DNA from: Desulfovibrio sp.
Lineage (GTDB): Bacteria; Desulfobacterota; Desulfovibrionia; Desulfovibrionales; Desulfovibrionaceae
NCBI GenBank assembly: GCA_031269345.1
Contig: JAISZH010000101.1
Coordinates: 1 to 45,244, forward strand
Direction: 5' to 3'
Length of the DNA stretch: 45,244 nucleotides
In this document: one piece after another, positions 731-45,244 of the stretch
How the letters are laid out: each line of letters begins with the position of its first letter
Numbering within the stretch: the stretch's first letter is position 1
Position numbers and translations under genes: made by a program
The notes under the pieces: model-generated
The model's input: the letters and a program-made list of their open reading frames with translations, nothing else
The model's database searches: none
What the model was told of the DNA's origin: nothing

Positions 731-775
731 AATTTTAGAGCATTTCACACTTGAAATGCTTTGGCAAGGATTTGC
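731..775 (-). repeat. Partial structured intergenic repeat
   Basis: The stretch holds an imperfect palindrome (agcatttca, then tgaaatgct) and, on the minus strand, gcaaatcctt. Both modules recur in the arrays at 3401-3488, 20404-20641 and 36780-37068. It lies between the divergent hicA remnant and the methyltransferase gene, just upstream of the putative promoter. Confidence 0.55.
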
Positions 776-796
776 GACACAACAGAAGGGTGAAAC

Positions 797-3261: not shown

Positions 3262-3400
3262 TCGCTGCTTCGCTTGCTCCAATTTTGCTCCACTGACTTT
3301 GGCGACATCTGAATTCTCAAAAATTTTATGGATAAAGATTCATCTGATATTATTTGAATAAAACTGATAACCGGCAGAAATTATTGAGGGTAAAATCACT

Positions 3401-3488
3401 CTTGAAATGCTCTGGCGGCCGCGAGAGCGGGCGCCCGCCGCGAAGGCACAAGCGCAAGTTATTTGCGCTGCAAATCCTTGCAGAGTGG
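3401..3488 (+). repeat. Structured multi-hairpin intergenic repeat
   Basis: The gap after the endonuclease gene (3262-3515) has no gene. It contains a half-palindrome ending in ttgaaatgctctggcgg, a perfect GCGGGC/GCCCGC inverted repeat at 3427-3438, an AGCGCAA/TTGCGCT hairpin at 3451-3469 and the motif gcaaatccttgc. The same module order occurs at 20504-20563 and 36820-36878 with different stem bases. The ctctggcggccgcgagagcgg part also appears, reversed, at about 41781-41802. Confidence 0.65.
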
Positions 3489-3515
3489 ATCATATATTTT
3501 CAATAGCAATTCGCT

Positions 3516-3593
3516 CTAAGATGGGTGGTGGGATTGGCTGAGTACGGACACCAGCCAGTTATTGAGGCTGCTGCCGTTGCTCTGAGCTTCCAC
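3516..3593 (-). pseudogene. hicB: Detached 3' end of hicB
   Basis: On the minus strand this encodes VEAQSNGSSLNNWLVSVLSQS followed by a few residues and a stop. It is exactly the continuation lost from the hicB copy at 126-434. It has no start and no N-terminal part. Upstream of base 3593 the sequence changes abruptly to the 3' flank of the MATE gene. The overlap with the left copy is the 37-bp direct repeat. Confidence 0.8.
3557..3593. repeat. 37-bp direct repeat, right copy
   Basis: This copy matches 128-164 with one mismatch. It ends 20 bases from the stop codon of the MATE gene and marks the right border of the hicBA/restriction-modification module. Confidence 0.9.
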
Positions 3594-20403: not shown

Positions 20404-21066
<663 letters not shown>

Positions 21067-21578: not shown

Positions 21579-21702
21579 GCTTTGTCCGCTCTAGCAGATA
21601 CCCCGTCGCACAAAGAAAATTGTACGCCGCATGGCGGCACTGGTCAGCCGGAAAGCGCACTTTCCGGCCTGATCCGATCCGCGCGTTGAAAAATTCTTTA
21701 CT

Positions 21703-21790
21703 GATACCCGCATTGAAAAGTAAACTCTTCCCTGCGGAGGATCGTCTGCCAAAAACGCGGTTTTCGGCTGACTTGCGCCGTGAAGCGGCA
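21703..21790 (+). repeat. Three-hairpin repeat element, copy 2 (degenerate stem)
   Basis: The stretch from gatacccgcattgaaaag to gccgtgaagcggc matches the elements at 23491 and, reversed, 24774 and 20570. Here the central stem has mismatches (GTCTGCCAAAAA against TTTTCGGCTGAC), so this copy is decaying. It lies between the HIT gene and hslV. Confidence 0.8.
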
Positions 21791-23475: not shown

Positions 23476-23490
23476 GTATGGCGTATTTAT

Positions 23491-23580
23491 TGATACCCGC
23501 ATTGAAAAGTGAACTTTTTCCTGCGGAGGATCGTCAGCCGAAAACGCGGTTTTCGGCTGACTTGCGCCGCTTCGCGGCGA
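23491..23580 (+). repeat. Three-hairpin repeat element, best-preserved copy
   Basis: Three stems lie in a row: GAAAAGT/ACTTTTT, then after cctgcggaggatc the perfect 12-bp stem GTCAGCCGAAAA/TTTTCGGCTGAC, then CGCCGC-TTC-GCGGCG. The same order is found at 21703, and reversed at 24774, 20570 and 36973. It lies 15 bases after ispE and upstream of tRNA-Gln. No ORF is plausible in it. Confidence 0.85.
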
Positions 23581-24773: not shown

Positions 24774-24862
24774 GCCGCGAAGCGGCGCAAGTCAGCCGAA
24801 AACCGCGCTTTCAGCTGACTTGCGCCGCAGGGAAAAGTTTACTTTTCAATGTGGGTATCCAT
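24774..24862 (-). repeat. Three-hairpin repeat element, reverse copy
   Basis: Read on the minus strand it has the same modules as 23491-23580: gatacccacattgaaaag, GAAAAGT/ACTTTTC, the central stem (one arm altered, CTTTCAGCTGAC) and GCCGC/GCGGC. It lies in the 5' region of the radical SAM gene, 23 bases before its start. Confidence 0.8.
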
Positions 24863-25150
24863 AAGGCAACCTGACGGAAGACATAAAATAAGCACCAGAC
24901 GTCGTTTGTCCATAGGAGTGGAATAATACGCTTGGAATGTCAGCAAAAATTTGCTTGCCGGAAATTTCCCGTTCCCGGCTTGCCAAAAGGACAGCTTCGT
25001 GCCACAAGATGGCGCATCCAAAGATGAATCTGTTGTCCAACGTCGGCCGTTACCTCCGGGCCTATAAAACACACGCGCCCATACCTGCGGGTCTGCTTCA
25101 TGCTTTTTGCGCAAAGTCCTGAATTTGGCCGAAACAGCCAGGTGTGTCCG
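24863..25150. other. Gene-free gap before the heptosyltransferase
   Basis: The ORFs here (for example 24937..25122) have no ribosome site, no recognisable motif and overlap in other frames. I see no gene or clear promoter. Confidence 0.4.
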
Positions 25151-28764: not shown

Positions 28765-29656
28765 GGCATTGCGGAACTTGTTAGCGGCCGCCTCCCGGAT
28801 TCCTTGGACCGCTTTGAGCCGTCTGGCGCGCGTCCTGGCTTTTTTCTTCTGGCATTTGGTCCCTTCACGCAGAAAAGAAGCGGTAAGCGCAATACGTAAA
28901 CATCTTAAAGTATCACATGAAGAAGCCTTAAATCTTGCCAGGCAAAGTTTTGCGGAAAATTTTCTGTCATTTCTGGAGATTCTGCATGCTGGCCGTTTTT
29001 TTACGGAACAATCGGTGCGTATCCTTTATACTCCGGAAGTGAAAGCCAGACTTCAAGCTGAAAAGGGACCGATTATTATAGCCACCGCCCATCTTGGTTC
29101 CTGGGAATTGATGCCGGGTCTGGCCGCGGATGTTCTCCCGCAACGCGAGGGCATGGTAGTCGTGCGCAGCCACAGGAACAGGACTTTGAACAAAATTATT
29201 GCCGAGCTGCGCGGGGCGCGGGGCATGCTGGTCGTAGACCACCGCAGGGCGGTGGAAATTCTTCTGCCCAAACTGCGCAATGGGGGTCTCGCGGCTTTTC
29301 TGGTGGATCATAACACGAACCGCAGGGAGGCTGTCTTTCTGCCCTTTCTCGAGGATACGGCGGCAGTGAATATGGGGCCGGCAAGTATCGCCTTGCGCGC
29401 CAAAGCGGCTGTGTACCCGGTTTTTCTGCTGCGGGACGGTAAAGGCGGACACATCCTGCATATGCTTGAGCCGTTGCATACAGAGGGGCTGGAGGGAAAC
29501 ATACGGGAACGGGTAGCGAAAATAGCGCGTTTTTATACCGATGCTGTGGATAAAATGGTGCGGATTTACCCGGCACAATGGTTTTGGATGCATAGACGCT
29601 GGAAGACCAGACCGGATCAGTCCGCATCCTCCGGCAAACAGGGACGTAGCGTATAG
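28730..29656 (+). CDS. Lipid A biosynthesis acyltransferase, LpxL/HtrB family
   Basis: The 308-residue membrane-associated enzyme should transfer a secondary acyl chain to KDO-lipid A. The catalytic HxxxxE motif is AHLGSWEL (about residue 120), followed by RSHRNRTLNKIIAELR and the FLVDHNTNRREAVFLPFLE loop typical of LpxL. One N-terminal hydrophobic anchor is visible. The start is ambiguous: ATG at 28730 overlaps the DUF374 gene by 35 bases, while GTG at 28754 has an AGGGG upstream and gives MLYRALRN. The 3' end overlaps the opposite-strand gene by 40 bases. Confidence 0.88.
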   Translation: MPDKRGAAVLYRALRNLLAAASRIPWTALSRLARVLAFFFWHLVPSRRKEAVSAIRKHLKVSHEEALNLARQSFAENFLSFLEILHAGRFFTEQSVRILYTPEVKARLQAEKGPIIIATAHLGSWELMPGLAADVLPQREGMVVVRSHRNRTLNKIIAELRGARGMLVVDHRRAVEILLPKLRNGGLAAFLVDHNTNRREAVFLPFLEDTAAVNMGPASIALRAKAAVYPVFLLRDGKGGHILHMLEPLHTEGLEGNIRERVAKIARFYTDAVDKMVRIYPAQWFWMHRRWKTRPDQSASSGKQGRSV

Positions 29657-36312: not shown

Positions 36313-36750
36313 TTATGGGCGTTTCCCGTCACGCAAAACCTGACCAGCTGCAATGATGCCCTCACATCCGGATTTAATCGCTCTATCCGCAATTTCCCGA
36401 AGCGACAGCTTCCTGTTCTCCAGAATGCGCAACAACATGGGCAGATTTACGCCTGTGATCACTTCCACATCCGCGCGTGAGCCCAGAAGCGACAAGCTCA
36501 GATTTGTGGGCGTACCGCCGAACATATCCGTCAGTACAAGCACACCGTGCCCGTTGCTCAGCAACTTTACCGCGTCTTGAAGCCTTGCCACCACCTCTGT
36601 GGTTTCCAGTGTCGAATCCACCTGTATGCAGGTGCAATCCTGAACCGGTCCGCTGATGAATTCCGCTACGCGCAACAAAGCACTGCCGTAGTCCAGATGC
36701 GTGACTATAATTATGCCAGCTTGCGGCGATTTGCTTATGGTTTCGGACAT
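36313..36750 (-). CDS. PTS EIIA component, mannose/fructose type
   Basis: The 145-residue domain belongs to the EIIA-Man family, a phosphocarrier using a histidine near the N-terminus (IIIVTHLDYGSALLRVAEFI). VLTDMFGGTPTNLSLSL and VITGVNLPMLLRILENR are family signatures. In Desulfovibrio and relatives such proteins form a partial, probably regulatory PTS next to rapZ and rpoN. The start at 36750 is preceded by AAGGAGAAGG; the track start nine codons earlier is not. It converges with lptB, and a 300-base hairpin array separates it from rapZ upstream. Confidence 0.88.
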   Translation of the reverse strand: MSETISKSPQAGIIIVTHLDYGSALLRVAEFISGPVQDCTCIQVDSTLETTEVVARLQDAVKLLSNGHGVLVLTDMFGGTPTNLSLSLLGSRADVEVITGVNLPMLLRILENRKLSLREIADRAIKSGCEGIIAAGQVLRDGKRP

Positions 36751-36779
36751 CACCCTTCTCCTTGCCAACAAGGTCATGC

Positions 36780-37068
36780 GCCGCCAAAGGCGGCATAATC
36801 CAACGAAACTCGCATTTTACGGCGAGCAAAGCTCGCTTGCAACCCTTTGGCGGCAAAGATTTGCCGCCAAATCCTTATAGCATTTACGCTTGAGATGCAT
36901 ACTATACGTATCGTGACGGCACTGCTTTGTGTTTACTTGCAAAAGTAAACACTACAAAACCCGAAGGGTTTTGCGCCGCCGTAGGCGGCGCAAGTCGGCG
37001 GAAAACCACGTTTTTCCGCCGACGATCCTGCAAAAATAACCATAAAAAATATGTTCGTTATTTTTGCA
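36780..37068. repeat. Array of about nine hairpins between rapZ and the EIIA gene
   Basis: Successive inverted repeats fill the gap: GCCGCC-AAA-GGCGGC (36780), GCGAGC-AAA-GCTCGC (36822), GGCGGCAAA/TTTGCCGCC (36849) plus aaatcctta, gcattt/gagatgc (36880), GTGTTTACTT/AAGTAAACAC (36929), AAAACCC-GAA-GGGTTTT (36956), GCGCCGCC-GTA-GGCGGCGC (36973), GTCGGCGGAAAA/TTTTCCGCCGAC (36994) and TGCAAAAATAAC/GTTATTTTTGCA (37029). Several correspond, with altered stems, to modules at 20404-20641. The last one may serve as terminator of rapZ. Confidence 0.8.
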
Positions 37069-37076
37069 ATCAGGCA

Positions 37077-38000
37077 CTAACCGAGTTCCAGATGCCTGTG
37101 TTCCAACGTGGGAAAATAGTTTTTTTCCCTGAACGCCTCGGCAAGAGCTTCTGCTACCGCCACCGAGCGGTGCCTGCCGCCAGTGCAGCCAATAGCCACA
37201 GTGAGCCTGTAGCGCCCCTCTTTTTCGTTCTGCTTCAGAATAAATCCCATAAATGCCTGAAGTTTGATGAAAAACTTCCGGCCCGGGTTGTTTTTAAGAA
37301 CATAATCCCGTACCGGCGCATCCAGCCCGGATAAGGGTTTAAGTTCAGGTATGAAATACGGATTCGGCAGAAAGCGCAGATCAAAGACCATGTCGGCTTC
37401 AGAAGGTGTCCCATATTTGAAGCCAAACGTGACAAGGTGAATTTTTAGGTTGCGCGTAAGCTTGCTGAACATGTTCCATTTGGTCTGGATAAGGCGGCGC
37501 AGATCGTGAATGGAATGAGATGAGGTATCCATAACCAGATCCGCGCTCTTGCGCACATGCCGCAGGCGATAGCGTTCCTGCGCCATGGCCTGCTCAAGTC
37601 CCAGACCTTCTTTTTCAAGAGGATGCGGCCGCCTGGTGGTCGCATAGCGTTTCAGCAGGACATCATTGTTTGCCTCAAGAAAAATGACGCGTGGTACAAT
37701 GCCCTGAGAGGTCAGGTCATTTAGCGCCCTGCCCCAGCCCTGAAGGAAATCGCTTTGGCGCAGGTCCATCCCCAGGGCTATGCCCCGATATTTATCCAGA
37801 CCGTGTTCTCGGATCATTTTCGCCATGGAGGCCGCGAATTCCACCGGCAGTCCGTCCACTGTGACAAAATTAATGTCCTCGAACACTGCCAGAGCGGTGC
37901 TTTTTCCGGAACCGGACAGGCCTGTTATGATGACTACGGCGATATTATTCGCCCCGGCAGCAACAGCAAGCGATCCTGGTGGAGGAAACCCGGCTGCCAT
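37077..38000 (-). CDS. rapZ: RNase adapter / nucleotide-binding protein RapZ
   Basis: RapZ proteins link amino-sugar metabolism to small-RNA decay in enterobacteria; in other groups the role is less clear. The 307-residue protein has Walker A ITGLSGSGKST (25-35), FVTVDGLP, the RYATTRRPHPL stretch, VTFGFKYGTPSEADMVFDLRFLPNP and the C-terminal signature IGCTGGRHRSVAVAE. It follows hpf by 12 bases; the ptsN gene often found between them is absent. Confidence 0.93.
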   Translation of the reverse strand: MAAGFPPPGSLAVAAGANNIAVVIITGLSGSGKSTALAVFEDINFVTVDGLPVEFAASMAKMIREHGLDKYRGIALGMDLRQSDFLQGWGRALNDLTSQGIVPRVIFLEANNDVLLKRYATTRRPHPLEKEGLGLEQAMAQERYRLRHVRKSADLVMDTSSHSIHDLRRLIQTKWNMFSKLTRNLKIHLVTFGFKYGTPSEADMVFDLRFLPNPYFIPELKPLSGLDAPVRDYVLKNNPGRKFFIKLQAFMGFILKQNEKEGRYRLTVAIGCTGGRHRSVAVAEALAEAFREKNYFPTLEHRHLELG

Positions 38001-41736: not shown

Positions 41737-41825
41737 GCCGGCTTGTAGCCGGCCCCTTTGAGATATCACGCCTGTTGGCGTCCGCTCTCGCGGCCGCCAG
41801 AGCAATTTCAAAGTGAAATTGCTCT
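41737..41825. repeat. Composite hairpin repeat between bamD and rlmD
   Basis: It holds GCCGGCT-TGT-AGCCGGC (41737-41753), ACGCC/GGCGT (41768-41781), the cggccgccagag module shared with 3407-3430 in reverse, and agagcaatttca-aag-tgaaattgctct (41799-41825), whose core equals the hairpin at 23810. The last hairpin overlaps the bamD stop codon. The reverse strand also contains acaggcgtgatatc, matching the unit at 5236. Confidence 0.7.
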
Positions 41826-42552
41826 AAAGCCACTTGAACCAGTCGCGCCATGATCCTTCACGTTGTTTGCGCGTGTCCTCCGCTTCATTTTCTGTATTCA
41901 AAACAAAGGCAGCTTTGGATTTTTCTATGGCAAATTCATAGATTTCAGTAACATCTTGATATTTGTCTATGATTACTTTGTATCTCGCCAAGGCTGAGGC
42001 ATAACGGCCCATACGGTAATAAAAATCCGCGTAGAAAAGCTCGTGTTCGGCCATGAGTTTACGGCATTCCTTCATTTTTTCAGCGGATACCGCGGCATAT
42101 TCCGTATTTGGATAACTTTCGATCAGACGCTGAAAATAGGAATAAGCTTCGACAATAGGATCCGACGGTCGATCAATGGAGGGGTAGCCGTTCATGCTGG
42201 CCATGCCTATGTTGAACAGCACATAGGGAATTGCCTGATGCCTGGGATGCAAACTTTCAAATTCCTTATAGGCATCAACGGCCGCCGGCCATTCTTCATC
42301 TAAAAAATAGCAGTCCGCCAGGGAAAGCTCGGCTTCCACGGCATATGGGCTGAAAGGGAAAAGATCTTTCAATTTTGAGTAATATTTGCTCGCCCCTACG
42401 TAATTTTTGTCACGCATGGCGTCATTGCCGGCTTCGAAAAGCTCCTGAGCGGTATCTTCCCCTGGCGGCAGATAAAACCAGTCAATAATACCGCAGCCGG
42501 AAAGCAGGAAAACTATGATAAAAACGCCTAAAAACCGCGCCGGTTTATCCAT
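41824..42552 (-). CDS. bamD: Outer membrane protein assembly factor BamD
   Basis: BamD is the essential lipoprotein partner of BamA in folding outer-membrane barrels. The 242-residue precursor has a lipoprotein signal ([21 protein letters not shown]) and tetratricopeptide-like helical repeats, e.g. AQELFEAGNDAMRDKNYVGA, SPYAVEAELSLADCYFL and YPNTEYAAVSAEKMKECR. The start at 42552 yields this signal; the track start at 42603 does not. It overlaps the trxB end by eight bases, so it lies in the trxA-trxB-bamD operon. Confidence 0.92.
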   Translation of the reverse strand: MDKPARFLGVFIIVFLLSGCGIIDWFYLPPGEDTAQELFEAGNDAMRDKNYVGASKYYSKLKDLFPFSPYAVEAELSLADCYFLDEEWPAAVDAYKEFESLHPRHQAIPYVLFNIGMASMNGYPSIDRPSDPIVEAYSYFQRLIESYPNTEYAAVSAEKMKECRKLMAEHELFYADFYYRMGRYASALARYKVIIDKYQDVTEIYEFAIEKSKAAFVLNTENEAEDTRKQREGSWRDWFKWL

Positions 42553-45152: not shown

Positions 45153-45192
45153 AGAGGCGTGACGTCGCACTGGAGCATTTTACCTTTGAGAT
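45153..45192 (+). repeat. Intergenic repeat at the window's right end
   Basis: gaggcgtgacgtcgcactgg resembles the units at 5152 and 5236, and is followed by agcattttacctttgagatg, similar to the modules at 735 and 36879. The flanks 45083-45152 and 45193-45244 show no gene. Confidence 0.5.
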
Positions 45193-45244
45193 GATGTATC
45201 CTGCCCTCTCCAGTCTACTCCCGCTCCGGCGTTTAACAGCGCAA

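Follow-up and report, generated by a model that had tools for sequence, protein, structure and literature searches.

The hairpin-rich gap between rapZ and a mannose-type PTS EIIA gene in a Desulfovibrio sp. genome is a pile-up made of two mobile elements that are not related to each other, along with the probable remnant of a third, and not one functional array. The gap is very probably a stack of non-autonomous MITE-type elements which insert at TA, end in TAG and are tolerated in stop codons. At least three families of such elements (A, B and C) are present, together with a smaller family E linked to IS5. The kind of element is known, while families A to C were found described nowhere. The analysis started from one stretch of 45,244 nucleotides (contig JAISZH010000101.1), hereafter called the window, and its features are collected in Table 1.

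The gap between rapZ and the EIIA gene

The initial annotation described nine consecutive hairpins in the gap. A hairpin search of 36780-37068 recovered eight clear inverted repeats, the ninth being only a weak palindrome. The strong folding was confirmed, as the gap folded at -86.9 kcal/mol against a mean of -45.1 for shuffled sequences (z = -10.1), and none of 100 shuffles was as good. Over the window, hairpins with arms of at least 8 nucleotides numbered 15 in the 6.3 kb of intergenic DNA versus 5 in the 38.9 kb of coding DNA, with the intergenic and coding borders taken from our own choice of ORFs.

Table 1. Genes, elements and element fragments located in the window
Feature	Position	Strand	Evidence
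rapZ, full length; the C element opens with its TAG stop	37077-38000	-	NCBIfam RapZ 321 bits, profile 1-278/278
PTS EIIA gene (mannose type), 3' of the pile-up and codirectional with rapZ	36313-36777	-	
Family C element, complete (151 bp, with five hairpins)	36929-37079	-	Copies, ends, covariation
Probable family E remnant (IS5-type miniature element), GCAGTGCCGTCACGATACGTATA	36900-36926	-	Local alignment to E
Decayed family A element	36799-36898	-	BLAST 78-82% to A consensus; covariance model R1 32.4 bits
Short hairpin GCCGCC/GGCGGC adjoining EIIA, outside the named families; also complementary to 36844-36854	36780-36798	.	
Family A copy running from H2 to the right end, with a C/D-type hairpin in place of its left end	20473-20563	-	98% to consensus
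Chimera of B 5' part, 3387-3470 (+), and A left part, 3518-3454 (-)	3387-3518		B part 88% identical to family B
Left end of family A element	736-776	+	
Left end of family B element	41777-41826	-	
Right end of family B element; contig terminates inside	45174-45244	-	
Empty site; G006 carries a B+A composite there between duplicated TA	29617-29626	+	

The order read from the rapZ stop codon would be C, E remnant, A and EIIA. The five hairpins of the C element were located at 37068-37029, 37023-36994, 36993-36971, 36973-36955 and 36952-36929. The probable E remnant aligned locally to a 118-bp E element with a score of 15, while the best of 500 shuffles reached 12. The decayed A element matched the A consensus by BLAST with E values of about 1e-11 to 2e-13, and its left-end module (about 36898-36877), H2 (36871-36846), the inner hairpin of H3 (36836-36822) and a degraded right end could still be recognized. 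The EIIA start at 36777 is probably placed too far 5', as alignments with relatives begin only near residue 9 and an internal ATG (MSETIS...) is the better candidate.

The gap is lineage-specific. It measures 302 bp here, 185 bp with other content in the closest relative, and 108 and 78 bp in others. The closest named relatives are the Desulfovibrio MAGs Roe453_bin138, whose rapZ is 93% identical, and Hs463_bin41; a termite-gut origin is what we read from the isolate names. The single array of fixed module order proposed in the initial annotation thus dissolved into unrelated stacked elements whose content varies by lineage.

It is very unlikely that rapZ and EIIA are separated by a conserved array of regulatory or terminator hairpins. 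Hairpins between two genes of the same strand would be transcribed, and one terminator-like site does lie on that strand, but 0.9 ± 1.0 such sites are expected by chance, the gap is unlike in every relative and in some it comprises just 78-108 bp without elements. Furthermore, no covariance model of Rfam 15 matched the gap, even at E up to 1. An array of terminators or promoters was rejected since the counts were at chance level. A secondary effect of the hairpins on the mRNA is possible.

Families of elements and their distribution

The elements are 118-153 bp long and have no coding capacity, since stop codons occur in nearly all frames. In families A, B and C the two ends agree in 16-18 of 21 positions, forming imperfect terminal inverted repeats (TIRs), and start with TAG, or with TA in some B ends; TAG or TA was found at most resolved ends. 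The copies are many, dispersed, mainly intergenic, and differ between relatives.

The consensus of family A (about 127 bp) begins with TAGAGC and the H1 palindrome, followed by H2 (GCAAGGATTTGC-gg-GCAAATCCTTGC), by H3 (CGCGAAACAG...GGCGGGC-ttt-GCCCGCC...CTGTTTCAAGCG) and then by TTAATTGCTCTA. In the 2.63-Mb source genome, BLAST gave 97 matches including minor strand matches, of which about 46 were near-full or partial copies, and the covariance model gave at least 149 matches. We estimate about 150 or more family A copies in this genome. The TAGAGC end motif had 103 matches and its reversed control none. The covariance model matched in all 15 genomes of the genus that were searched, the figure being a lower bound in two of them. 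By BLAST all genomes of the same genus were positive, and outside the genus one of 25 genomes searched in the family and order. This one, G022, is a near-complete genome from another genus of the family with 13 matches, and could be a place to seek the mobilizing transposase or horizontal transfer. Family A gave no match in the plasmid and phage collections. Between codirectional genes of the source genome, family A stood in the transcribed orientation 19 times and in the opposite one 3 times; a general orientation bias was rejected because the relatives gave 13 versus 15.

Among the matches listed for the source genome, which comprise the best 40 or 150 candidates scored and, being picked by similarity, are biased to intact copies, family B (about 150 bp) had about 45 near-full copies and family C about 17, at 92-100% identity. 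Full-length C copies also occur in relatives, and the C ends read TA|GTG...CAC|TA. The interior of B (GGCGGCCGCG..GCGGACGCCCGCCGCGAAGGCGCAAGCGCAATTTATTTGCGC..GCGCCGGAGCGGGCG) is strongly kept across the genus, above the rest of B, and folds into nested helices (alignment A5).

The initial annotation had aligned the second and third modules of the gap with two other loci in the window and proposed a search for further copies; these were found both in the source genome and in relatives. The homology to the locus at 20473-20563 held, both being family A, and GGCGAGC/GCTCGCC against GGCGGGC/GCCCGCC is indeed a paired change. The third locus (3427-3479), taken for a copy with other stems, turned out to lie in a B/A chimera.

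Target sites and stop codons

Alignment of a syntenic contig from the relative G006 revealed an empty site in the window. Where the window has GGAT-CA-GTCC, the G006 sequence is GGAT-TA-(B element, TA, A element)-TA-GTCC. TA is therefore duplicated, with one substitution (CA for TA) in the window, and the two elements in G006 are stacked via a shared TA. This was the only clean empty site read.

Three lineages share the RapZ terminus RHLELG-TAG. In the window this TAG opens the C element, in the close relative G006 it opens a different element (TAGAGC...), and in the relative L012 it is a plain TAG without element. As judged from these sequences, the RapZ stop codon was struck independently by C in the window and by another element in G006.

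The coincidence with stop codons extends beyond rapZ. Among all copies examined, whose selection by similarity favours intact ones, 52 element ends fell exactly on the stop of a long open frame, with no other offset exceeding 6, whereas about 8 exact coincidences were expected by intragenic insertion, as calculated from frames reading into elements. In all nine informative cases of a protein terminated by an element, the family profile is covered to its end and the protein is therefore not truncated; these proteins include HisD (393/393), FlgI (344/344), RodA (356/357), an HdrB-like protein (290/290) and RapZ (278/278).

These results suggest how the pile-up may have formed. An element would insert at a TA, which is thereby duplicated. 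As all families have ends starting with TA-G, an element that lands in the TA of a TAA or TAG stop would regenerate TAG in either orientation, and such an insertion would be tolerated because the protein keeps its end. Selection would filter for harmless sites such as stop codons and positions between genes, and is probably the main reason why stop-codon sites are so frequent. The inserted element would leave TA at both ends as landing places for further elements, and rows of unrelated hairpins would grow because the tolerated sites keep offering TA. TAG ends landing on stop codons give a countable rule for high-copy elements in a gene-dense genome, and the hairpin-rich intergenic arrays of the genus can be explained as layered mobile elements. 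For annotation, such arrays should be taken neither for dedicated riboregulators nor for recombination arrays, and they probably break MAG assemblies. Several other contigs begin or finish within or close to a copy of A or C, where the repeats seem to break the assembly.

Search for a mobilizing transposase

The ends of family E match the end TAGATAGTGCCGTCA of an IS5-type (DUF4096) element of the source genome. This element is located at G000:C43:29590-30249 (L068), and family E miniatures of 118-120 bp with matching ends were identified at L017:1257-1376, L227:338-457 and L123:34-151. No autonomous element with A, B or C ends was found in the draft MAGs when two transposase families and Y1 were searched. 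IS630 (DDE_3) and IS5 (DUF4096) elements were rejected as direct parents of A to C because their ends differ, and a search for long A-ended elements carrying a gene yielded three chance ORFs only. We infer that families A to C are mobilized in trans by TA-targeting DDE transposases of the IS5 or IS630 type.

A REP/BIME system mobilized by RAYT (a Y1 tyrosine transposase) is hardly credible. Family A is high-copy, palindromic and intergenic, and occurs in tandem about 125 bp apart, as such a system might be. However, the units are 118-153 bp with TIRs, TA-G ends and TA duplication and not GTAG units of 20-40 bp; Y1_Tnp was absent from the source genome (92% completeness), on which ground this origin was rejected, and also from several other genomes bearing copies, being patchy in the genus.

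Covariation of the hairpin stems

In 29 copies of family A, 95.4% of the cells were paired and 12 pairs were changed on both sides, compared with 5.4 ± 1.5 in shuffles (0 of 500 had as many) and at most 4 in slid controls. Family C likewise had 12 doubly changed pairs against 6.8 in shuffles (2 of 500). Family B is mostly invariant, with one covarying pair. The modules do recur and their stems vary through paired changes, as the initial annotation had expected. Its interpretation is only partly supported, because its structural argument leaned on the chimeric third locus and on AAATCCTT as a conserved single-stranded motif. AAATCCTT is in fact the 3' strand of H2 (GCAAGGATTTGC/GCAAATCCTTGC), the best-conserved stem of A, and 94.8% of its cells are paired in the consensus. 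It looks unpaired in the window copies because the opposite strand is partly decayed.

One explanation of the covariation is that the multi-hairpin body is an RNA or single-stranded DNA recognized in mobilization or by a host factor, and kept by selection on pairing. The doubly changed pairs of A and C are in line with this, as are pairs flipped between G-C and C-G in the outer stem of H3 in A and a conserved unpaired AA bulge. Single changes in relatives also produced more G-T than A-C (59 versus 21), as a structure of one strand predicts. However, this excess was weak when events were counted once (33 versus 19) and almost vanished in the source genome (29 versus 24), so that reading an RNA strand from it is suggestive only. 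The copies are also related and the counts not independent. Young copies of the source genome had 68 single versus 6 double changes, and these mostly one-sided changes indicate that pairing is not maintained site by site. We consider a recognized structure possible but rather doubtful. A stronger form, in which several unrelated families converged on TA-G ends and their hairpin bodies are conserved as RNA or single-stranded DNA for spread, is unlikely; if true, such elements would be a structured class apart from deletion-derived MITEs.

The covariation may also be mutational. Template switching, documented in quasi-palindromes (PMC8794818), rewrites one arm from the other without selection. 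In one G006 copy the asymmetric loop usually present inside H3 has disappeared and its two arms pair perfectly, in L020 the 11-nt loop of H1 is exactly inverted relative to the core, and several H2 loops occur along with their reverse complements, although very short loops can equal their reverse complements by chance. If arms were corrected often, neither the AA bulge nor the asymmetric loop inside H3 should survive, yet both persist in most copies and subfamilies. The inverted and erased loops favour template switching as at least a partial cause, and the persistent bulge and internal loop speak against its being the only one; as the source of the covariation it is a real possibility, at somewhat less than even chances. 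Both explanations are compatible with the gap being a stack of mobile elements, and the hundreds of related copies provide material to ask whether selection or template switching compensates the stems.

Comparison with known elements

Small mobile repeats that carry TIRs, end in TA and duplicate their target form a well-known class (PMC2229807; review PMC10969869). Families A to C resemble RUP of Streptococcus pneumoniae, a 107-bp element for which IS630-Spn1 was proposed as mobilizer (PMC2229807), in being short, non-coding and dispersed, with TIRs and a TA target. They differ in a sequence that is unrelated as far as known, in comprising three to four families with more internal hairpins, and in that the search yielded no partner IS for A to C. 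BOX elements of S. pneumoniae supply the stop codon of a full-length gene in 36 cases (PMC3049150), as the elements do here, but BOX is modular (boxA/B/C), whereas here the stop is restored because several families have TAG at either end. ERIC/IRU/RU-1 (127 bp) is of similar size and shares the palindromes, TA termini and intergenic location (PMC2229807), but belongs to another host lineage and has another internal architecture. Correia/NEMIS elements share TIRs, TA ends and high copy number, and their transcripts fold (PMC2229807); sequence and host differ. The REP/BIME and CGTC/GTAG palindromes are likewise high-copy, extragenic and clustered (PMC3733652), but are 20-40 bp long with GTAG tied to RAYT, whereas the elements here are larger, with TIRs and TA duplication.

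Many MITEs are AT-rich. The G+C content was 0.51-0.52 in A, 0.54 in B and 0.44 in C, compared with 0.54 in the window, and A and B in particular are not AT-rich. AT-richness is usual in this class but not universal, as YPAL/RU-2 is not AT-rich either (PMC2229807). A literature search found no paper linking Desulfovibrio with MITEs or such elements.

A further hairpin module, AGCCGAAAA..TTTTCGGCT followed by GACGATCC, has about four copies in the window (20571-20645, 21698-21780, 23487-23579 and 24782-24864) with paired changes in the stem, and resembles the second hairpin of C.
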